IMG/VR virus record: IMGVR_UViG_3300040801_000600
Span: 1-24,219 of that record
DNA: 24,219 bases
Source of the DNA: a virus
Reading direction: 5' to 3' (one strand)
Part shown: in pieces, positions 9,936 through 23,033 of the stretch
Position numbering within the stretch: position 1 is the first letter of the stretch
Layout: each line of letters opens with the position of its first letter
Notes under the pieces: generated by a model
The model's database searches: none
Seen by the model: only the letters and a program-made list of their open reading frames with translations
Told to the model about the DNA's origin: nothing
Translations under genes and position numbers: made by a program

Positions 9936-9978
9936 AGTCAGATCAATTTATACATCATTATTTATAACCAATCTGACT
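9936..9978 (-). repeat. Inverted repeat enclosing the gp18 promoter boxes
   Basis: AGTCAGAT at 9936-9943 and ATCTGACT at 9971-9978 (plus strand) are perfect 8-base arms. The 27-base interior holds the TATAAATA box and a second near-box (TATAAATT), which can pair partly with each other. No long T-run follows, so it does not look like an intrinsic terminator. Confidence 0.5.
9959..9966 (-). promoter_or_regulatory. T4-type late promoter (TATAAATA) before gp18
   Basis: Exact TATAAATA on the minus strand about 43 bases ahead of the gp18 ATG. A second near-match (TATAAATT) follows about ten bases later. The position fits gp55/gp33-dependent late transcription of T4-like phages. Confidence 0.7.
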
Positions 9979-10007: not shown

Positions 10008-12236
10008 TCATCTGCGACCATTACGAAAATTTAGATATTCTTCATATCCACCAAATTCGTTAATTTTGCTCTGAAAATCTCTAACTTCACTATCTAATAA
10101 CCATCCATCTGGATCGTGTGCTTCAGCGTCAGCCGCTAAAAATGCATCCCAAGCTTCTTCCATTTCAGGATCTCCTTCAGCTTCTTGAAGAGGAGTTTCT
10201 TGAGGATTTGTTTTATTCATTCGATACCAGAGTTCAGGATCATTTTGTAACATATCTTTTTCTTGCCATTCATATTTTTCACCTTCAAAGAAATCCGAGT
10301 GTAAGAAATATGAGAACCATATACAAGACATGACACAATCATCATATAAATTTTTACCTTCTTTACCTTTAAATACACCCTCACGCACTTCTTCAAAATA
10401 TCCAATTTCATCAATCGTTTGGTCATCATTTAAGATAATATGTCCACCTTCAAGATCAGCTTTGAAGTGTTGACATGCTTTTGGTTTGGTTGAGCGAGTT
10501 GCTAGAACTCCATATTCTCCTCGTTGAACATCAAAGAATAGATTTTCATATTCATAGTCATTAAACATACTAGCACATACATCATCTCCATAACCACCAG
10601 GATTTACTTCGATAATAACATATGCATCATTCCAATATTTAGCACTATTATAGATATATTCTGCCATCTGAGTTGGAGGTAGGGTATTACAACGCCAAAT
10701 TGCTACTTGTTCATGAGCCATACCTGCCAATGCACCAGTTACATCGAATACATTAATAATAGAAAAGTCTGACCCTACTCCACCACCAACATCGACAGAA
10801 ATCGCATATTTATGTCCAGGTTTGGATTGTGCCCACATTTTAGTCCATTCGTCTGGCATCCAAAGTGGTTCTTTTTTATTTAAATGTTTAATGATATATT
10901 CTGCTTCAATGAGAGTAATAGATGATCCTTGGAATTGACAGTTATGAGTTTTTATACCGTTTGCATAAAAAGAATGTTCATCATTATCTACTTCTAATAC
11001 ATCATAAACGTATTCTTTTCCTTTATATTCGATAGAAACGATCTTCTCAGGACCATCAATAGTATCTATAATATCCCCCACTTGTAGGTCTTTCATTTGG
11101 ATAGTTTTATCACCACTGAAAATTTCATGGTCAAATGTTGTGGTAATGGTCTTATCACAGTTAGTTGTTAAACATATACCTGCTTTTTTCACATCAGATT
11201 TTTTTAAACCCTCGAACTCTACCCATCCATTTTCAGTTTCTATTTCATAGTCTTCAAATGCAGCAATAACAAAAGTTTCCATATATGTTTTAAATCTATC
11301 TGATTTTAAATATTCATCTTCATTCATGCTGTTTTTTGATGAATTTATTTTACCATGAACTATTGCCAGATTTGATGGTGATCCGATTTCTTCTGGCGAC
11401 GCCTTACGTTTAAATCCATTACTTATAGATTCCCTATGATCAATTGAAATATGTTCTGGGAATTTATATAAAGGAAATCCAGTATATTCGCAATATCCGC
11501 TCCATAATTCAAAAACCTCATTTAATGATTGTAATGTTTCTCTTTTAACATCCAGATAATATTTTTTTATTTCTGGCATTTTAGATCTTGGTTGCCACTT
11601 ACCAGCATCTTCCATATTTTTGCGGATCGCATCTTTTATCTCTTTCAAGCAACTGGTTGCAGGAACTCCATATACATTCATATTGGTATTTCTTCGTTTT
11701 ACATTCGCAGAAGTTTTCTTCTCATCAGTCCACGATTTCCTACGTTTCTCATTGATTTCTTCTTTATTCTCTTCTAATGCCTTGACTCTTAAATTAGTGG
11801 TTTCTTCTGTTAATAAATTGGTTTTAACGCCAAAATTCTTCAAATTGGTGTGGGCAACTTTATTTTTAGTATCAACTAACTGAGGAACGTGCTCTTTACC
11901 ATACTTCTTTAAATTGGTAGTTTTTCTTTTTGATAAAGCTTTTTCTTTATCGTATGAATTTACACTTCTTTTATGATTTACTATGTACTCAGGATCTTTA
12001 TGAGAACATTTAACTGAACAAGTTCTTGCATATCCTTTTTGGTGGAATTTTGTAGGTTTACCACAAACTACACATATACCTTCACCATCTTTCTTTTCAG
12101 TTAAATCATAATACTCTTTTTTACTAGTTATACCATGATCAGGTCCACAATGGTATCTGAGAAAATGTGAAGGTCTATACTTGGTCTGGGAATTACAGAT
12201 TTTACAAAACACAGGTAGTTCTTTACACCTTTTCAC
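10008..12236 (-). CDS. 17: Terminase large subunit gp17, C-terminal piece: HNH endonuclease + C-intein + nuclease domain
   Basis: A 742-residue precursor. Residues 8-82 hold two Zn-binding clusters (C11-x2-C14...H24-x4-H29; C55-x2-C58...C73-x3-C77). Residues 105-195 have repeated TNLKKYG-like motifs, and 245-310 an HNH-type site (D266-H267, N289, H294, N298). Residues about 325-432 are a C-intein: block-B-like TTTFDH (365-370), then D-L-Q-V-G-D and the ending SFYANGIKTHN before Cys433. From Cys433 the gp17 nuclease domain follows, with likely catalytic D482, E543 and D632/D633. The start is GTG at 12236 with GGAGG nine to ten bases upstream; a stop lies in frame at 12255-12257. It overlaps the N-terminal piece by 14 bases in another frame. 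Trans-splicing would release the endonuclease-intein and complete gp17. Confidence 0.9.
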   Translation of the reverse strand: MKRCKELPVFCKICNSQTKYRPSHFLRYHCGPDHGITSKKEYYDLTEKKDGEGICVVCGKPTKFHQKGYARTCSVKCSHKDPEYIVNHKRSVNSYDKEKALSKRKTTNLKKYGKEHVPQLVDTKNKVAHTNLKNFGVKTNLLTEETTNLRVKALEENKEEINEKRRKSWTDEKKTSANVKRRNTNMNVYGVPATSCLKEIKDAIRKNMEDAGKWQPRSKMPEIKKYYLDVKRETLQSLNEVFELWSGYCEYTGFPLYKFPEHISIDHRESISNGFKRKASPEEIGSPSNLAIVHGKINSSKNSMNEDEYLKSDRFKTYMETFVIAAFEDYEIETENGWVEFEGLKKSDVKKAGICLTTNCDKTITTTFDHEIFSGDKTIQMKDLQVGDIIDTIDGPEKIVSIEYKGKEYVYDVLEVDNDEHSFYANGIKTHNCQFQGSSITLIEAEYIIKHLNKKEPLWMPDEWTKMWAQSKPGHKYAISVDVGGGVGSDFSIINVFDVTGALAGMAHEQVAIWRCNTLPPTQMAEYIYNSAKYWNDAYVIIEVNPGGYGDDVCASMFNDYEYENLFFDVQRGEYGVLATRSTKPKACQHFKADLEGGHIILNDDQTIDEIGYFEEVREGVFKGKEGKNLYDDCVMSCIWFSYFLHSDFFEGEKYEWQEKDMLQNDPELWYRMNKTNPQETPLQEAEGDPEMEEAWDAFLAADAEAHDPDGWLLDSEVRDFQSKINEFGGYEEYLNFRNGRR
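10941..11264 (-). other. C-intein segment (about 108 residues)
   Basis: Residues about 325-432 of the C-terminal piece. The opening YEIETENGWVEFEGLKKS aligns in pattern with the start of the AceL-TerL C-intein (IKI-x3-NGF-x-x-F-x-GI-x-K). TTTFDH supplies the block-B T-x-x-H, and IKTHN-Cys the block-G ending. The N-terminal boundary is approximate. Confidence 0.85.
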
Positions 12237-13110
12237 TATATAAGTCCTCCAAAGTTACTGATCGTACTTCTCCAGTTACTTTATGTCTTATATTTATAAC
12301 AGTATCAGGCCAAAAACAGTTGAATTCCTGATTAAAACGAATATTCCCTAACATCTGACGCATTTCTTTTTCCCAAGATTCATCTCGACCTGGAACTTGT
12401 CTCCAATCAACTTTATATGGGACAAATGGGAAGTCGGCTGAATCATTAGATGCATCTTTCCAAAGATTGTAAAATAAGTTACCAGTACCATTTGGAGTAG
12501 AAACCACGATACATTTACCACCAGTAGAGATAACTGGCAAGTTTGATGCCCAGAACTCGTCTGCCAAGTTATTTGGAACGAATGCGAACTCGTCTAGGAA
12601 GATCAATGCAGCAGATTCACCACGAAGAGCATCTTTAGAAGTTGCACGAGCAAGAATCTTACACCCATTATCAAATTCTACAGTTCCTTTGTTATATTCG
12701 ATGACTCCAGGTTTAAGATATTCTGGTAATCGTTCATAAGCGAATTTAATTTCATCAAGAATTGCAACAGCAGTTGATGCTTTGTTAGCAAGAATTGCAA
12801 CAGTTTTATCTTTTTGGAAACATGCGAACCATAAAAGATAGATAGCTGAACATGTGGTTTTACCAACCTGTCTAGCTGCCATTAAAATATTTAATCGGTG
12901 ATCTTGGAAATTACTAAGAATACCTTCTTGATAATCTCTAAGAGAAATAAGCTGGGCACCAGTGACCTGGTGAACTACATAATAGAAGTTTTCAGCAAAG
13001 AATTTTACATCTTGAATGCACTGGGCATAGTTTGCCAACATAGCTGCATCAAACTGGATTTTCTTTCCTGGACGCTTAATACGACCGTCATCATCATATT
13101 TAATAGGCAT
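12223..13110 (-). CDS. 17: Terminase large subunit gp17, N-terminal piece: ATPase domain + N-intein
   Basis: A 295-residue protein from the ATG at 13110, preceded by TTGGAG with nine bases spacing; the TTG at 13125 is part of that Shine-Dalgarno and is not the likely start. Residues 1-264 are the packaging ATPase: Walker A AARQVGKTT (78-86), Walker B ALIFLDEF with D173-E174, and the coupling motif VVSTPNGTGN (202-211). Residues 265-295 are an N-intein starting with Cys265 and containing block-A-like DTVINI and a closing VTLEDLYSEK. The frame ends with TAA at 12225-12223, inside the Shine-Dalgarno/start zone of the next piece. After splicing, 264 N-extein plus 310 C-extein residues give 574, near the T4 length of 610. 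The motor packages DNA into the prohead through the portal. Confidence 0.93.
   Translation of the reverse strand: MPIKYDDDGRIKRPGKKIQFDAAMLANYAQCIQDVKFFAENFYYVVHQVTGAQLISLRDYQEGILSNFQDHRLNILMAARQVGKTTCSAIYLLWFACFQKDKTVAILANKASTAVAILDEIKFAYERLPEYLKPGVIEYNKGTVEFDNGCKILARATSKDALRGESAALIFLDEFAFVPNNLADEFWASNLPVISTGGKCIVVSTPNGTGNLFYNLWKDASNDSADFPFVPYKVDWRQVPGRDESWEKEMRQMLGNIRFNQEFNCFWPDTVINIRHKVTGEVRSVTLEDLYSEKV
12246..12250 (-). promoter_or_regulatory. Shine-Dalgarno GGAGG for the C-terminal gp17 piece
   Basis: GGAGG lies on the minus strand inside N-intein codons (TTG GAG GAC), nine to ten bases before the GTG at 12236. It decides the start of the second piece and argues that the split is genuine. 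Confidence 0.8.
12291..12298 (-). promoter_or_regulatory. Late-promoter-like box TATAAATA inside the N-intein
   Basis: Exact TATAAATA overlapping the Ile-Asn-Ile codons of the N-intein, about 55 bases ahead of the GTG of the C-terminal piece. A transcript starting about six bases after it would carry the GGAGG and GTG. By eye, the other exact minus-strand copies lie just ahead of gene starts. Confidence 0.5.
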
Positions 13111-13119
13111 GCTGTAAAT

Positions 13120-13147
13120 CTCCAAAAATATTTATACATTTTTGGAG
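13120..13147 (-). promoter_or_regulatory. Hairpin that overlaps the gp17 Shine-Dalgarno and encloses the late promoter
   Basis: Perfect 10-base arms CTCCAAAAAT and ATTTTTGGAG (13120-13129 and 13138-13147) with an 8-base loop. On the minus strand the downstream arm contains the gp17 GGAG, so an RNA reading through from upstream genes could hide it. An RNA starting from the TATAAATA inside the hairpin would lack the upstream arm. T4 genes e, soc and 49 use this logic. Confidence 0.6.
13129..13136 (-). promoter_or_regulatory. T4-type late promoter (TATAAATA) before gp17
   Basis: Exact consensus about 18 bases before the gp17 ATG, within the loop and arms of the 13120-13147 hairpin. The predicted start would fall at or next to the GGAG, giving a very short leader. 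Confidence 0.65.
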
Positions 13148-13150
13148 GAT

Positions 13151-14056
13151 TTATGGACGAAAAATTTTAGAGAAGTCCCCGTTTCTATATTCTGCTTTAA
13201 TAAAATGCCACTTCCATAAATCTCTGAGAGTAGGTTCTTCATATCTTCTACCCCCCAATGCATTTGGACTAGGATTGACATATATCTTAGGGACCAAAAA
13301 TCTATTCTCAAATTCTATCATAAAACTATTGATACCAATATCATTTTTAAAGTTTTTCTGTTTTTGTGGAGGATATAATTCAGTATCAATCTTTACTTCA
13401 ATTGGATTCAAGAAATTTTTTCCAGATCTAGCATCTTCCCATAACCATTGAAATAGACTTCCAAAATCTCCAGCAGAAGATGTCATTACTAACTGACTCC
13501 AGTACATATCTTTCAACAAGAAGCCATTTTGTATATGAGTCTGTAAATTCTTATGGTTGACATATTGAGTTTCATCAGACCATAAAAGATCAAAACGAAA
13601 TCCTCTAAACCCATCAAATGAACCAAATGAAATGCCATAGATATGAACATCATTATCAGCCTTTATGCATTTAGAGTTTGATGTAAGCAATCCTGGTTTG
13701 ATCCACTCTGGCAATTGTTGATATTTTTCTTGTATTTCTTTTATGAGTCTTATGCTTTGTGCATGGGAATCTGTAACAATACCTATAGACTTATACTGGT
13801 TAAAACAAAGATACCATAAAATCAAACCTTCCATGATAGTCGTTTTACCATGTTGTCTTGGTGATAGTACAATAGTGTCGTTTCCATTGATAACAGACTC
13901 AAGTATTTCTTTATGGTAACCTTTGACGCTATATTTTCCAACTCCAGTTACTGGAGAGATTATGTCCATATACTGTTCTAGAAAATATATAGGATCACGA
14001 ACACATTTGACAATCTCAGAATATTGTTCAGGAGTTCTTTCAGTCGTCGTGATCAT
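13151..14056 (-). CDS. Free-standing terminase ATPase-domain protein (gp17 paralogue lacking the nuclease)
   Basis: A 301-residue protein between gp16 and gp17. It aligns by eye along the whole gp17 ATPase domain: Walker A VLSPRQHGKTT (63-73) against ILMAARQVGKTT; LPEWIKPGLL against LPEYLKPGVI; Walker B DLLWSDE (156-162) against LIFLDE; and MTSSAGDFGSLFQWLWEDA (191-209) against VVSTPNGTGNLFYNLWKDA. It passes the position of the gp17 intein (IEFENRF against QEFNC, the Cys replaced) and ends about 48 residues later with no nuclease domain. Both Walker motifs are intact, so ATP hydrolysis is plausible; motif III has lost the STP. Its ATG overlaps the end of gp16 with a GGAGG/AGAGG region upstream. 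It may be a second packaging ATPase, a regulator, or a relic of duplication. Confidence 0.85.
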   Translation of the reverse strand: MITTTERTPEQYSEIVKCVRDPIYFLEQYMDIISPVTGVGKYSVKGYHKEILESVINGNDTIVLSPRQHGKTTIMEGLILWYLCFNQYKSIGIVTDSHAQSIRLIKEIQEKYQQLPEWIKPGLLTSNSKCIKADNDVHIYGISFGSFDGFRGFRFDLLWSDETQYVNHKNLQTHIQNGFLLKDMYWSQLVMTSSAGDFGSLFQWLWEDARSGKNFLNPIEVKIDTELYPPQKQKNFKNDIGINSFMIEFENRFLVPKIYVNPSPNALGGRRYEEPTLRDLWKWHFIKAEYRNGDFSKIFRP

Positions 14057-15976: not shown

Positions 15977-16600
15977 TCAAGACATATAGTTTCTGAAGTT
16001 ACCAACTCCCTTGTCTTCTTCATATACACCCATCTTTGGAGCACGTTCAGCTTTCTCTGCTTCTTCTCTTGCTCGTCTTTCGTCTTCACCTTTCTTCACT
16101 CCTGGAAGCTGATCTTTTGGATCTTCAATAGTAATCTTCTCTTCAAGCTCTTCCTCTTCAGATTCCTCTTCTTCAGACTCTTCTTCTTCAGATTCCTCTT
16201 CAGAACCAAGTTGTTCCTCTTCTTCAGCTTCTTTCTCTTTGAATTCTTCGCTTGCAGATTCAAGATCATCTTGAGCAGAGTCAAGCTTTTCAGTTGCTTT
16301 GGCTTCGATTTCTTGATGAGTTTCATAGTCGATGACGCCTTCACCTTCCATTTCTTCAGCAGTAGTAATCATATTAACTGCGTCTGAAATGTCTTCTGCT
16401 GCATCTTCAAGATTCTCATATGCTTCATGCTCCCCTTCTTCAGTTTCAGGGTCGATTCCAGCTTCTACAGCATCATCTTCGACTTCTTCAGTATCATCAA
16501 CGTCATCTTCGACTTCCTCCATAGTTGGATCATAGTTTTCAAAAAGCATCTTAAGCTTCTTACCAAATTCTCCAGGTTCAAATTTTAGTTCGTCTGTCAT
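15977..16600 (-). CDS. Highly acidic protein of unknown function between gp14 and gp15
   Basis: A 207-residue protein of extreme acidity: residues 28-60 and 120-155 are mostly Glu and Asp, including serial S-E-E-E-E units (about 136-153). Between them, residues 60-125 form an Ala/Glu-rich helix, and the C-terminus (185-207) is mixed and ends NFRNYMS. No catalytic motif or membrane segment is visible. The short ordered N-terminus (DELKFEPGEFGKKLKMLFENY) and C-terminus could be docking peptides. It has its own exact late-promoter box and a GGGAGG Shine-Dalgarno, so strong late expression is likely. Possible roles are a virion or neck component, an assembly scaffold, or a DNA-mimic; none can be chosen from sequence. 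I do not recognise a family. Confidence 0.8.
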   Translation of the reverse strand: MTDELKFEPGEFGKKLKMLFENYDPTMEEVEDDVDDTEEVEDDAVEAGIDPETEEGEHEAYENLEDAAEDISDAVNMITTAEEMEGEGVIDYETHQEIEAKATEKLDSAQDDLESASEEFKEKEAEEEEQLGSEEESEEEESEEEESEEEELEEKITIEDPKDQLPGVKKGEDERRAREEAEKAERAPKMGVYEEDKGVGNFRNYMS

Positions 16601-16632: not shown

Positions 16633-16640
16633 TATTTATA
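16633..16640 (-). promoter_or_regulatory. T4-type late promoter (TATAAATA) before the acidic gene
   Basis: Exact TATAAATA followed by ATATT, about 32 bases before the ATG at 16600, with GGGAGG in between. It falls in the short gap after gp14. Confidence 0.7.
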
Positions 16641-16644
16641 TATT

Positions 16645-17823
16645 TTACCAGTCTCCCCACAATTCTCTATTGTTACGCAATATTCTACCAGCAGGACCAT
16701 ATTTATTGTATCCAATGAAGTTGCGATAATCTTCAGAGTTTGTTGGGATTGGAAGACCAGTATCAGTATAAACTGGAATTCCTTGTTCATTCAATTCGCC
16801 AGATCGACCAGATGGAAGATCTCTATAAACATTTAAATCAGTCTGAGGATCAACCACTTGATCAGCAGCATCTTGAATTTCTTGATTTTCACCTTTAGCA
16901 CTAAATGGTTTTGGACCTTTAACTTTATATTTACTGGCAATTCGTCCATCTTCCAAATAATAATCATCTGGAACAGACCCATCATTATAATCTTCAAGAT
17001 TAGTTGGACCTGGAGCACCTCCAGTGGTTTCGTATTGCACTCTTCCACACTCATCTTCTGGCGATCCAGATGTTGGCGGATTTAAGTCTGGATTTGGGAA
17101 TGGATCTCTTAAATCGTCACAATCTGGTGTTGGAACAACGAATTGTGGATTCCCACTATAATAATCTGGTGGTAGACCTTGACTTATTGCATATTCTTCT
17201 AGTGACATATTTTGTGGGATTGGTCCATACTGCTCACCTTGACCAACAACAGGTGCAGATGTCTCTCTGCTTCTAAGAGTAAGTTTATACCAGAACTTAT
17301 GACCGAAGTGTTGAGCATTAGTCTCCAAAAAGTGTAAGCCACCAGTTATTACTTCATAAAATAGCCCATTATGTTGAGTTTGAAGTATGTCAGATGCAAT
17401 GGGACCATACCCACCTCTTCTGCTTGGTCGTGGTGTTAAGTTTGGAGATTCGACTGGGGTTTCACCAGAACGCCAGCCAACAAGTCTATCGAATGTTGAT
17501 CTATGAACATAAAGAGTTAATTCGTCAATATTTTCAAGACCAAAAGTAGAAAAGTTTTGTAATTCTTGGGTCCACTGTTCAGTGATGGCAGTAAGTTGAA
17601 ATGCACGATCCCAAACAGGTCTTGAGTTTTCTCCATGAATTGGATCTAGGCCATCTTTGTAATCATCAACATGTAAGGTATAATATTGAATAGGAATTCC
17701 AACAATGCCAGCCCATTCTGCCATCATATTGTCATACGTCTGTATTTCTCTATTATTGTCGTAATCCCCTTGATATTGTCCCCAATATCGTTTCCATCTC
17801 ATGGGATCTGGTGCTCCAGCCAT
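16645..17823 (-). CDS. 14: Neck protein gp14 with long Pro/Asp-rich C-terminal extension
   Basis: A 392-residue protein. Residues 35-190 resemble T4 gp14 (256 aa): GIPIQYYTLHVDDYKDGLDPIHGE, then FSTFGLENIDELTLYVHRSTFD (91-112), and GGLHFLETNAQHFGHKFWYKLTLRSRE (161-187). These match the F-G-x-x-x-x-D-E-x-x-[LF]-x-[VI]-x-[RK] and FWK-x-x-L-x-x-[KR]-x-E type features of gp14-family neck proteins. gp14 joins gp13 to seal the filled head and accept the tail. Residues 190-392 are Pro, Asp, Gly and Tyr rich with two Cys (233, 262), probably an extended decoration. The start has AGGAG and an exact late-promoter box about 27 bases upstream. Its neighbours are a metallopeptidase upstream and an acidic protein downstream. 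Confidence 0.8.
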   Translation of the reverse strand: MAGAPDPMRWKRYWGQYQGDYDNNREIQTYDNMMAEWAGIVGIPIQYYTLHVDDYKDGLDPIHGENSRPVWDRAFQLTAITEQWTQELQNFSTFGLENIDELTLYVHRSTFDRLVGWRSGETPVESPNLTPRPSRRGGYGPIASDILQTQHNGLFYEVITGGLHFLETNAQHFGHKFWYKLTLRSRETSAPVVGQGEQYGPIPQNMSLEEYAISQGLPPDYYSGNPQFVVPTPDCDDLRDPFPNPDLNPPTSGSPEDECGRVQYETTGGAPGPTNLEDYNDGSVPDDYYLEDGRIASKYKVKGPKPFSAKGENQEIQDAADQVVDPQTDLNVYRDLPSGRSGELNEQGIPVYTDTGLPIPTNSEDYRNFIGYNKYGPAGRILRNNRELWGDW

Positions 17824-17849: not shown

Positions 17850-17857
17850 TATTTATA
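17850..17857 (-). promoter_or_regulatory. T4-type late promoter (TATAAATA) before gp14
   Basis: Exact TATAAATAC on the minus strand in the 38-base gap between the metallopeptidase stop and the gp14 ATG, with AGGAG downstream of it. Confidence 0.7.
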
Positions 17858-18935: not shown

Positions 18936-20192
18936 TTATCCCATATAGAAATCTGCAGGTAGAGAATAACGACCATCATGAATCTGATCTTCTAATTTTT
19001 CTCTTAATGCATCGCCACGACTTAGATATCCATCAGAATTAAATGAGCCGCCTCCTGGGAATGTAAGACCTGTATATTTCATTCCATTCATTCCGCATTG
19101 TATCATACAAAGTGCAAATGCATATTCTCTCACCCACTGATGCTCATACATGGCTTCATCTGGTACGCGACGAGTTACAGCGAAAGCGATAACACCTTTT
19201 GATTTTGGTGGAGGGGTAATTCTAACTTTATGTTCAAGTTCTAATAGCTGAACATTCGTTTTAATCGAATATAATGTTCTAAACATTTCAAGATATTGCA
19301 TACCCATTTCCCAACCAACAACATCAACGAATCCGCCATGAGAACCATGCCAATATCCATATCTATTATCTGTCCATGCTGTTGGGCTTTGCATTCCCCA
19401 GTTACCACCACCATGAAGAAGTAAGTGTAATGGTGAGAATAACGCTTCACCACCAGACCCATATTGACCAGTTCCAAAATATCCAACACCTAAATGAGAA
19501 TGGACAGCAATAACGTCACTTGGTACGTCATAAACGCTCTTGAACACAAATCCTTGTTTAGTGGGTTTGACTGTTGTATCGCCTTCAACCCAGAATGGAC
19601 CTTCAGCTTCAGGGTCACCCTTTTCAGTTTCAGTAAAACAGTGAGGATCTTGAATTCCATCACCACACCATCCCGGACCACGACAATCTGCTTCTTCTGG
19701 GCAGCATTCTCCATTTGCATCGACTGAAGGTAAAGGATTTGTACATTCGTCTAATGGAGGTTTAATGTGAGCAGTATTAAATGCTCCACAGTCTTGAGGT
19801 GGACATGCTGATGTGCCAGATGTTCCAGTAGTCCCTGAAGTACCTGTAGTGATACAATCTAATTCTAAATCTTGAAGTTGATCAAGAGTTAAATTATCAT
19901 TTTGCGTTGTCGTAAGTGGTTGAAGATATGGTTTTCTTGGTTTTCTCCATCTACCAGCAGTTGGTCCAGGTTGACATGGACTACCAGTTCCATCGTAGTA
20001 AACAGGTTCTGGACAAATAAGCATGACGCTATCTTCATTACCAATTCCTGAGGCATGCTCACCAAAATAATCAGTAGCTTGATCAATTAAATCATCAATC
20101 TGAGTAGAATCGATTAGCTGATCCACTATAGGAGCACCTAGTCTTCTTCTAATCCAATTCGCCAATTCTCTTTTTTTACGATAAGGTCGCAT
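18936..20192 (-). CDS. 13: Neck protein gp13 with Cys-rich insertion
   Basis: A 418-residue protein. Residues 1-45 read RPYRKKRELANWIRRRLGAPIV-x-QLID-x-TQIDDLIDQATDYFGEHASG, the opening of T4 gp13-type head-completion proteins (basic helix, then a [QE]-[IL]-x-D-x-[IL]-D-x-A motif leading to E-H). The C-terminal half resumes with GFVFKSVYDVPSDVIAV, W-E-M-G-M-Q-YLEM, and a final ALREKLEDQIHDG helix. T4 gp13 is 309 aa; the extra length is mainly a stretch at about 55-205 with eleven Cys (60, 73, 113, 130, 135, 150, 163, 164, 170, 176, 185) and a G-T-S-rich linker (117-128). The start has TTGGAG and an exact late-promoter box upstream. gp13 with gp14 closes the DNA-filled head for tail attachment. 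Confidence 0.8.
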   Translation of the reverse strand: MRPYRKKRELANWIRRRLGAPIVDQLIDSTQIDDLIDQATDYFGEHASGIGNEDSVMLICPEPVYYDGTGSPCQPGPTAGRWRKPRKPYLQPLTTTQNDNLTLDQLQDLELDCITTGTSGTTGTSGTSACPPQDCGAFNTAHIKPPLDECTNPLPSVDANGECCPEEADCRGPGWCGDGIQDPHCFTETEKGDPEAEGPFWVEGDTTVKPTKQGFVFKSVYDVPSDVIAVHSHLGVGYFGTGQYGSGGEALFSPLHLLLHGGGNWGMQSPTAWTDNRYGYWHGSHGGFVDVVGWEMGMQYLEMFRTLYSIKTNVQLLELEHKVRITPPPKSKGVIAFAVTRRVPDEAMYEHQWVREYAFALCMIQCGMNGMKYTGLTFPGGGSFNSDGYLSRGDALREKLEDQIHDGRYSLPADFYMG

Positions 20193-20220: not shown

Positions 20221-20228
20221 TATTTATA
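20221..20228 (-). promoter_or_regulatory. T4-type late promoter (TATAAATA) before gp13
   Basis: Exact TATAAATA about 29 bases ahead of the gp13 ATG in the 70-base divergent region between gp13 and the plus-strand glycosyltransferase; TTGGAG follows at 20206-20201. Confidence 0.7.
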
Positions 20229-20262: not shown

Positions 20263-20979
20263 ATGACTCAACTATCATTTATAACAGTTTGCATGGGTAG
20301 ATTAGAACATCTACAACAAAGCCTTCCAAGAATATACGATAAACCAAATACTGAAACTATTGTAGTTGATTGGAGTTGTCCAGAACATTGTGGGGATTGG
20401 GTAGAATCTTGTTACCCAAAAACGAAATTAATAAGAGTTCATAACGAACCTGAGTTTCATAGAACTATTCCTAAAAACATTGGTGCTTCATATGCTACTG
20501 GTAAGTTTTTATGCTTTTTGGATGCTGATATGTTAGTAGAAGACTCTCTATTTGATAAAATAATCACTTTGGATGAGAATAAATTCTATACAAGATTGCC
20601 AACATATGCATCATATAAAACAGGTCAGAAGTGGATTAATCGTGATGGCATAACAGATTTTGATGACCCATCAACCACTGGATTCATCATAATACCCAAA
20701 ACTCTATTTTCTGGATTTGATATTGTATTTGATAAGTATGGATCAGAAGATATAGATTTACGTTTGCAGTTATTAACAACTGGAGTAAAAGAAGAAATTA
20801 TGGGGAAAGTCATTAATCCTATACGACATAATGATGATTCTAGAACAAAATATGAAAATATAACAATGTCAGTTTCCAGAAAGATATCAAGAGAGAAGTT
20901 ATTCAAAAAATGGGGAAGAGATGTAATCAATAAGTTTTTAATTGAGTCTCAAGATCCTTTAGTTCATCTAAGTTCGTAA
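20263..20979 (+). CDS. GT2-like glycosyltransferase (GT-A fold), only plus-strand gene
   Basis: A 238-residue protein starting MTQLSFITVCMGRLEHLQQSL, the usual opening of family-2 glycosyltransferases (strand, then a helix binding the nucleotide). TETIVVDWSCP (30-40) is the second strand, NIGASYATGKFLCFLDADM (72-90) ends in the DxD metal/nucleotide-sugar motif D87-A-D89, and YGSEDIDLRLQL (159-170) supplies the catalytic-base-type ED motif. His189 in a following I-R-H may complete metal binding. It probably transfers a sugar from a nucleotide donor to an unknown acceptor, either virion protein or host surface. AGGA precedes the ATG. The last 53 bases overlap the end of the convergent GT-sulfotransferase gene. 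It starts in the same opening (strand-turn, then C-M-[GD]-R-L) as that neighbour, suggesting kinship. Confidence 0.87.
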   Translation: MTQLSFITVCMGRLEHLQQSLPRIYDKPNTETIVVDWSCPEHCGDWVESCYPKTKLIRVHNEPEFHRTIPKNIGASYATGKFLCFLDADMLVEDSLFDKIITLDENKFYTRLPTYASYKTGQKWINRDGITDFDDPSTTGFIIIPKTLFSGFDIVFDKYGSEDIDLRLQLLTTGVKEEIMGKVINPIRHNDDSRTKYENITMSVSRKISREKLFKKWGRDVINKFLIESQDPLVHLSS

Positions 20980-22375
20980 TATTAACTTTTTTGGATAATT
21001 TAACAGTTCTAGGAGTAAAATTATAATCAGGTAAATCCAATAAAGAATAGATTTCATTAACAATTTTTCGTTGACCATCTTCAGTTTTTATTTGGGAGTA
21101 ATCCAAAACTAAATCAGAAAATTCTTTGTTTATACCTTCCATATTTTTTGTATCTTCTAATGATCGGTTATACATGATTTTAAATATTTCAGGATCAACT
21201 GGCTCATTGAATTCACTACTTTTAAATGATCGATATAATTCCCTTTTGCGGGCCACACACATTGAGACTGCTTTATCAAATGTATTTTGTCGATTTAGGG
21301 TAATTATCTTCCAATTATTATCTTTAAGATATTGGCATAGATCTTCTATCGAAGATACATCATGGACCCATTCCCACTGATTCATCATAATTTTAAATCC
21401 ATAATGCATTCGATAATCAACTGTCTGAAATTTTGATAACGCTTCTAACTTTTCAAGTTGACCTACATGTTGAGAGGCAAGAAGGCCAATCTTGGGATTA
21501 ACAATATTAAATAATTCATTATGACAGAAAATGTTTGGGTGTTGGGATAACACATCAATTAGAAAATGAGATCCAGATCTAAATGATGCTATTATACAAA
21601 ACTTCTGACCATCAATTGTTGGATATGAATCGTTGTCAATTTTTATCTTACCCCAGTCTCTACCAACATTAGAAATAATTTTTCCAGATTGAATATTTTC
21701 TTGACTAATTTTAGAATTTTTATCATTACATTCAAAGAAGTTAGGTTCTTTTGTGTTCATCATTTTATCTTCAGTAGGGTTCTGGATAGCTCTCATAAAT
21801 TTTGGATTAGTAATATTTTTATATTTCGCACCATTTTCTATGGCTCTCAGAATAATATCAACATCCTGATATCCCATCCCTTCAAGTTCTTCATCGTATC
21901 CACCAATAGAATTGAAGAAGGGTCGCTTCATAAAAATTCTACCAAAATAACCATTTCCCCAATTAGTTTTGTGTGGATCAAAAACTTCTCGCTCTTTACC
22001 CAAATGACCAATAACTACATCATCAACATCTATCATACTCACAACTTCTTCAATAAATCCTTTGACAATATAATTATCAGCATCTAGATTGCAAACAATA
22101 TCTCCAGTAGCAAATTTGTGTACACAGTTCTTAGCATGAGGGGAACTATAATAAACAGGTTCTAATGTTCTGTAATATTTTAAAAATCCCTTTTTAATAT
22201 AATCTTGCAAACGAGAATCTGATTTTACGAATTCATGCAATCCATCATGGGAGTTATAATTCAATAAAACTAATTCAGCGTCTCCATATTCTTCTATCTT
22301 TCTGAGATTGTAAAAAATGGTTTCTCTTAGTTGAAACAATCTATCCATACAAGTTGTGCAAAATGAAACTTTCAT
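20927..22375 (-). CDS. Glycosyltransferase-sulfotransferase fusion protein
   Basis: A 482-residue two-domain protein. Residues 1-200 are a GT-A glycosyltransferase: KVSFCTTCMDRLFQL start, AKNCVHKFATGDIVCNLDADN with DxD at 98-100, and GGYDEELEGMGYQDVDIILRA (158-178) with acceptor-site acidic residues. After a linker (200-255), residues 256-482 resemble PAPS-dependent sulfotransferases: FCIIASFRSGSHFLIDVL (259-276) is the 5'-phosphosulfate loop, and IITLNRQNTFDKAVSMCVARK (357-377) carries the Arg362 and Ser371 of the 3'-phosphate motif. The enzyme could add a sugar and then sulfate it, or sulfate a sugar added by a neighbour. Its ATG follows the upstream stop within two bases; only a weak AAGG precedes it, so coupling is likely. 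Confidence 0.88.
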   Translation of the reverse strand: MKVSFCTTCMDRLFQLRETIFYNLRKIEEYGDAELVLLNYNSHDGLHEFVKSDSRLQDYIKKGFLKYYRTLEPVYYSSPHAKNCVHKFATGDIVCNLDADNYIVKGFIEEVVSMIDVDDVVIGHLGKEREVFDPHKTNWGNGYFGRIFMKRPFFNSIGGYDEELEGMGYQDVDIILRAIENGAKYKNITNPKFMRAIQNPTEDKMMNTKEPNFFECNDKNSKISQENIQSGKIISNVGRDWGKIKIDNDSYPTIDGQKFCIIASFRSGSHFLIDVLSQHPNIFCHNELFNIVNPKIGLLASQHVGQLEKLEALSKFQTVDYRMHYGFKIMMNQWEWVHDVSSIEDLCQYLKDNNWKIITLNRQNTFDKAVSMCVARKRELYRSFKSSEFNEPVDPEIFKIMYNRSLEDTKNMEGINKEFSDLVLDYSQIKTEDGQRKIVNEIYSLLDLPDYNFTPRTVKLSKKVNITNLDELKDLETQLKTY

Positions 22376-22376
22376 A

Positions 22377-23033
22377 TCAATAATATCCCTTTAAATCGTA
22401 TATATGTTCACCTATATGACTCAAAACTAATCCAGTATGACAATATAACTCAATCCCAATATCTCTTGCTCGCTGACAAAAACTAAAATCTTCTGGTAGC
22501 CAACGCTTTACACCATTGAAATCTGTTACCATTGTATTATATAAGTTATATGATTTTTCATTAGAATCGTTTATATACTCTAAATCTTGATATTTTAAAA
22601 TCATCATTTTAGCTACTTTTTTAGGGACTAACATAAATCCAGTAGCAATATATTTCATTGGAATTATAGAACCATCTAGTTTAAATTCGACAGTTTCATC
22701 TAAAGGGACTCCATTTATTTGGGGTCGGCCATCTGGTCGATATCCTTTCATTGAATAAAATCCGCCCATAATGGATTCAGGGTCCATATCGTTTAAAACT
22801 TTATCAAGAATATATGGGGGATTTACGATGATATCAGAATCAATGGTCAATAGAATGTCTGCATCAGACTTCATAAACATATGAAATGAATCGTTTCTGG
22901 CTTTTGTTATATGACTACATTGAGAAAGATAATAAGTTTCTACGGAATGATTACTAGTCATTTGGCTTTTAGAAACAATATATCTATAATCAACTTTACC
23001 ATCAATACATGGGGTTGATACGAATATTTTCAT
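22377..23033 (-). CDS. GT-A glycosyltransferase-like protein
   Basis: A 218-residue protein. It starts MKIFVSTPCIDGKVDYRY, and SHITKARNDSFHMFMKSDADILLTIDSDI (40-68) leads to a DSD (65-67) metal-binding motif. TGFMLVPKKV and RWLPEDFSFCQRARDIG (177-193) correspond to the acceptor/base region with E-D, and L-S-H-I-G-E-H (204-210) may give a metal-binding His. The ARN-D pattern before the DxD occurs in several phage and bacterial glycosyltransferases. No membrane segments are seen, so it is likely cytoplasmic. It sits between the fibre gene and the GT-sulfotransferase, with gaps of seven and one bases, implying a single transcript. Acceptor unknown; the fibre or another virion protein is a reasonable guess. 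Confidence 0.85.
   Translation of the reverse strand: MKIFVSTPCIDGKVDYRYIVSKSQMTSNHSVETYYLSQCSHITKARNDSFHMFMKSDADILLTIDSDIIVNPPYILDKVLNDMDPESIMGGFYSMKGYRPDGRPQINGVPLDETVEFKLDGSIIPMKYIATGFMLVPKKVAKMMILKYQDLEYINDSNEKSYNLYNTMVTDFNGVKRWLPEDFSFCQRARDIGIELYCHTGLVLSHIGEHIYDLKGYY

Follow-up and report, generated by a model that had tools for sequence, protein, structure and literature searches.

A predicted T4-type late promoter within the N-intein codons of a split viral terminase gene, and its association with homing endonuclease genes

The AceL-TerL, GOS-TerL, Cat and VidaL systems are split inteins of a TerL gene in which a very short N-intein of 25 to 37 amino acids (aa) is paired with a large C-intein (PMC11766414). 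The same design is found in gp17, the TerL gene, on the 24,219-nucleotide (nt) stretch of viral DNA studied here (positions 1 to 24,219 of IMG/VR record IMGVR_UViG_3300040801_000600; referred to as the window). Unlike those systems, the window adds a 320-aa HNH endonuclease ahead of the C-intein in its second piece, and its N-intein codons contain a predicted late promoter and a ribosome binding site. In the fractured genes of Dassa et al. 2009, as far as they are described where cited in PMC11766414, a homing endonuclease gene (HEG) lies between the split intein halves, as in the window, but is free-standing, whereas the window HEG shares an open reading frame (ORF) with the C-intein. Aeromonas phage PX29 resembles the window in having an N-intein piece followed by an endonuclease and C-intein piece (17A, annotated in GenBank as 'N-intein', and 17B, 'GIY-YIG endonuclease and C-intein') and in having a GTG start with GGAGG inside the N-intein codons; it differs in its GIY-YIG endonuclease and in an N-intein that has neither TATAAATA nor CTAAATA, the late motifs of PX29 being of the CTAAATA type (PMC1524935). 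The TerL of Vibrio phage Va1 is likewise in two pieces, with an endonuclease fused to the C-intein and TATAAATA at +20, but its endonuclease is Vsr/PDDEXK-like, its start is ATG and it carries no intein annotation. Finally, the HEG I-TevI of the T4 td intron has a T4 late promoter of its own, likewise placed in a mobile element interrupting an essential gene (PMC2988022); there, however, the intron RNA is removed before the host gene is translated, whereas the window promoter would also be translated as N-intein. A literature search, whose scope did not take in Dassa et al. 2009, returned no description of an N-intein that contains a promoter. The split intein is thus of a known kind (AceL-TerL/Cat; PX29 17A/17B), and the embedded promoter is new as far as we have searched. 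We consider it likely that the TATAAATA box in the window N-intein is a T4-type late promoter belonging to the HEG, concealed within the codons of the N-intein and here also driving the fused C-terminal precursor. The features of the split gene, all on the minus strand, are as follows.

12223-13110: gp17 (TerL) N piece, ATPase domain (N-extein) plus 31-aa N-intein (Pfam Terminase_6N, 3.8e-25; PHROG 5989 TerL, 1.5e-52)
13110 and 12225-12223: N-piece start ATG, with GGAG upstream, and stop TAA
12226-12318: codons of the N-intein from Cys1 to its final residue, aligned with same-site split N-inteins of 27 to 42 aa
12291-12298: TATAAATA, predicted T4-type late promoter in codons GTT ATA AAT ATA, 54 nt before the GTG
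12285: predicted transcription start, from T4 late promoter geometry with the box at -13 to -6
12246-12250: GGAGG Shine-Dalgarno sequence, embedded in codons TTG GAG GAC
12234-12236: GTG start of the second piece, 9 nt from GGAGG
11271-12236: HNH homing endonuclease part, about aa 1 to 322 (PHROG 3339 homing endonuclease, 5.9e-13)
10944-11255: C-intein, about aa 328 to 431 (NCBIfam intein_Cterm, 19.1 bits; cut-off 15.6)
10008-10943: gp17 C-extein, RNase H-like nuclease domain (PHROG 24361 terminase, 6e-11)

The coordinates given for the box, GGAGG and GTG in the original prediction, together with a 14-base overlap of the two ORFs, were exact, and all of these elements lie inside the N-intein codons of the first piece. 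The two-piece split also stood, with the N piece beginning at ATG 13110 rather than at the first TTG (13125). The Cys1 codon of the N-intein is 12318-12316, and its peptide reads CFWPDTVINIRHKVTGEVRSVTLEDLYSEKV to the stop codon. The second ORF (10008-12236, minus strand, 742 aa) is in the +1 frame relative to the N piece. It had been described as C-intein plus gp17 C-terminal domain; both are present, but the HNH homing endonuclease of about 320 aa precedes them, giving the order endonuclease, C-intein, nuclease domain. An AlphaFold model of the endonuclease part matched HNH nuclease domains in Foldseek (probability, 0.97 to 1.0; E, 0.015 to 0.03), and Terminase_6C matched the C-extein at 2.2e-4, just under the cut-off. 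Catalytic residues are present in the intein translations (Cys1, block B TFDH, terminal HN and Cys+1 in CQFQGSS). The joined intein matched VidaL (6vgv), a site-relative profile (A4) matched CatC (6dsl) at 1.1e-13, and single-sequence comparison matched VidaL at 5.6e-4 and CatC at 1.3e-3. Judged from its sequence, the intein that divides the window gp17 is naturally split and belongs to the atypical TerL type with a very short N-intein.

T4 late promoters carry TATAAATA at -13 to -6 and are recognized by gp55 with gp33 and gp45 (PMC1524935); with the box taken to occupy those positions, a start would be expected at 12285. Exact TATAAATA occurs seven times in the window, six times on the minus strand, compared to 2.4 +/- 1.6 boxes in dinucleotide shuffles of the window (seven or more in 3 of 100 shuffles). 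Besides the box in the N-intein, the minus-strand boxes are the following.

13129-13136, minus strand: before the gp17 N piece, 18 nt ahead of ATG 13110
9959-9966, minus strand: upstream of gp18 (tail sheath)
16633-16640, minus strand: upstream of the ORF at 15977-16600
17850-17857, minus strand: upstream of the ORF at 16645-17823
20221-20228, minus strand: upstream of the ORF at 18936-20192

That other exact minus-strand boxes precede gene starts had been noticed by eye, and indeed all six end 18 to 54 nt ahead of one (binomial P of about 2e-8, where positions 11 to 60 nt before starts make up 3.8% of the strand and the N piece is taken from ATG 13110). The sole plus-strand box (4778) is antisense within a gene and looks like a chance occurrence. 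Among the window boxes, only that at 12298-12291 sits within a gene on the sense strand.

One search of IMG/VR for close relatives of the gp17 pieces gave only a single distant, intein-less TerL locus, and another gave none. Since neither piece had close relatives there, profiles were needed, and C-intein profiles retrieved many TerL loci where the search for direct relatives had failed. Among these, the distance from Cys1 to TATAAATA is exactly +20 nt in L088, L103, L174, L176, L181, L184, L188, L199, Va1 (L011) and the window; the box is invariably written xxT ATA AAT A, and the surrounding codons differ among phages. In other N-inteins the box is found at +8, +29 or +35, or across the stop codon. 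The N-inteins of L082, L102, L114 and L188 terminate in Tyr-Lys-stop, encoded as TAT AAA TAA, so that the stop codon is itself part of an exact TATAAATA.

Occurrence of the box between Cys1 and the endonuclease gene was scored against the presence of a HEG-sized gap, defined as more than 350 nt from N-intein to C-intein. The box was present in 33 of 58 split inteins with such a gap and in 1 of 28 whose N-intein is immediately followed by the C-intein (P = 8e-7); reassignment of L103, which is HEG-less with a gap barely above 350 nt, gave 32 of 57 versus 2 of 29 (P = 5e-6). The association held after clustering at 50% identity (22/40 versus 1/20; P = 1.6e-4), was robust across 50 to 90%, and persisted when N-intein codons only were counted, which equalizes the length of the region (24/58 versus 1/28; P = 2e-4). 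Queries for the scans at the window's insertion site (site F) were drawn partly from box-bearing loci, with HEG-plus and HEG-minus cases coming from the same scans; the set from the second intein site, at Walker A, was gathered irrespective of the box and alone gave 15 of 29 versus 0 of 17. Relaxed boxes kept the association ([AT]ATAAATA, P = 2e-5; ATAAATA, P = 2e-6), and the Aeh1-type box CTAAATA showed no association with HEG presence. By crude motif typing, the box precedes at least three endonuclease families (HNH, GIY-YIG and Vsr/PDDEXK-like). Moreover, two Walker A inteins, L206 and L205, are 98.5% identical across 600 nt upstream, and the endonuclease is deleted in L205; their N-inteins show one difference in 126 nt, a nonsynonymous change of ATA to ATG that destroys the box. 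The proposal that the second piece has its own late promoter was thus supported comparatively, with the correction that the box follows the HEG and not the C-terminal precursor as such (1/28).

From the arrangement of these elements, we infer transcription from the box, trans-splicing and endonuclease activity. The late box at 13136 would drive transcription of the N piece, and the internal box that of a late transcript starting at 12285 and encoding endonuclease, C-intein and the nuclease domain of gp17. The ribosome binding site and GTG of the second ORF, within N-intein codons, would start its translation out of frame, and trans-splicing of the N piece with the C-terminal precursor would restore the complete gp17. 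Since endonuclease, C-intein and nuclease domain are joined in one frame, the box should yield the C-terminal precursor as well. It is possible, if not what we expect, that the box is real but serves the endonuclease only, as part of a selfish cassette, with the C-terminal precursor coming mainly from 13136 read-through and the internal promoter being incidental to gp17 supply. The box does follow the HEG rather than the C-intein, and most relatives have a free-standing HEG that stops ahead of the C-intein ORF; in the window, however, HEG and C-intein are one ORF, and any transcript from the box encodes the C-terminal precursor. Also considered was a hairpin that, as in the case of I-TevI, would sequester the ribosome binding site in read-through RNA; it was set aside, since RNA folds at the Shine-Dalgarno sequence did not clearly distinguish the read-through transcript from the late one.

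Several points weigh against a late promoter acting from within the N-intein. Read-through from the 13136 box could likewise express the second piece; 25 of the 58 gap-bearing split inteins, PX29 included, are without an exact box; shared ancestry reduces the number of independent cases; gp55 is absent from the window, which covers only a 24-kb piece of the genome; and searches of the nearest relative and of Vibrio phage Va1 for gp33 (PF16805) were negative. Since the gp33 search was positive only in PSTRCR_127, 92A1 and PX29, gp55 was used as the late-sigma marker. The nearest relative (G001) encodes a sigma of the gp55 family (3.4e-24), as do Va1, PX29, PSTRCR_127 and 92A1.

We regard it as unlikely that the box is a by-product of amino acid constraint, an Ile-Asn-Ile strand written in A+T-rich genomes, with no promoter role. 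INI is found also in N-inteins without the box, and the expected probability per N-intein is 0.1 to 0.45 in the most A+T-rich cases. When each N-intein was recoded synonymously with its own codon usage, however, 11 in-frame boxes were observed at site F against 2.42 expected (P = 1e-7) and 8 at the Walker A site against 1.65 expected (P = 1.5e-5). Boxes also lie immediately past the stop codon or across it, and the association with the HEG and the L205/L206 pair speak against constraint as well. The possibility raised with the original prediction, that such boxes lie inside genes at a background rate, did not hold: gene interiors of the same loci contain 0.077 boxes per kb, which predicts 0.5 in N-inteins preceding a HEG-sized gap, whereas 24 of those 58 N-inteins have a box within their codons (reverse-complement box, 2). 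The comparison with unsplit relatives pointed the same way, in that contiguous inteins had boxes at the chance level (0 of 9 at site F and 1 of 8 at Walker A).

The nearest relative found (L058; exteins 74% and 62% identical to those of the window) has at the window's site a contiguous mini-intein without endonuclease and without box. This relative (L020/L058) holds two TerL inteins, of which the Walker A one is split in three pieces, with a late box 19 nt ahead of its endonuclease start. A sequencing or assembly error that moved the frame by one base in an otherwise ordinary, unsplit intein bearing an endonuclease domain is a very improbable source of the break in the window. A +1 shift anywhere in 12254-12223 would fuse the frames, Vibrio K469 and VP-1 have an N-intein contiguous with an endonuclease at the window's site, and the mini-intein of the nearest relative is contiguous. 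Yet about 38 other split N-inteins at this insertion site, in as many other phages, stop after 27 to 42 residues in the same place; the window endonuclease is 35 to 40% identical to free-standing HEGs of the same site; and the GTG, behind a good Shine-Dalgarno sequence, yields an N terminus (V-KRCKELPV-FCKIC) that pairs with the starts of those HEGs (ME-KERI-FCKIC, MICADNTV-FCKIC). No sequence is missing between the two window pieces, and the box is kept beyond codon needs. An error as the origin of the split was dropped given the N-intein ends in the same place and the homologous HEG start. The earlier view that the boundary evolved fits the same break, box position and HEG start in diverged phages, and these comparisons support the conclusion that the gp17 break represents a real gene boundary. 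Overlaps of 14 bases between successive TerL pieces recur, with differing break points, in L010, L012, L053-L055, L018 and the window.

Programmed +1 frameshifting at the overlap, giving a single chain, would suit the overlapping frames and their +1 offset, but it is even less probable, as inspection by eye revealed neither a slippery sequence nor strong structure downstream, the independent start signals are strong, and split inteins can do without frameshifting. Equally hard to credit is a box that serves not as a promoter but as a site which the endonuclease binds or homes to, for although the I-TevI operator overlaps its late promoter (PMC2988022), the same box precedes HNH, GIY-YIG and Vsr/PDDEXK-like HEGs alike and is identical to the late box that stands before other, unrelated window genes.

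Between the gp16 position and gp17, the window has a second T4-type terminase ATPase-like ORF (13151-14056, minus strand) with no nuclease domain, 28% identity to the gp17 N piece and the Walker A sequence SPRQHGKTT; the nearest relative (L020/L058) lacks an ORF of this kind in the interval from its gp16-like gene to gp17. Three glycosyltransferase-like genes are found amid the late structural genes (20263-20979, plus strand; 20927-22375 and 22377-23033, minus strand).

We tentatively propose that, in T4-like viruses, independent expression of the HEG may select for intein splitting: the promoter and ribosome binding site would evolve in the N-intein, the frame would break there, and later loss of the HEG would free the box from selection. 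If true, one stretch of DNA would be under selection simultaneously as a splicing-competent peptide, a promoter and a translation start, and such dual-coded N-inteins, serving splicing and promoter function together, would be a general reason for the frequent fracturing of TerL inteins right after a very short N-intein. This would explain in concrete terms how naturally split inteins originate, and it predicts that the atypical split inteins of protein labelling derive from loci arranged in this way.
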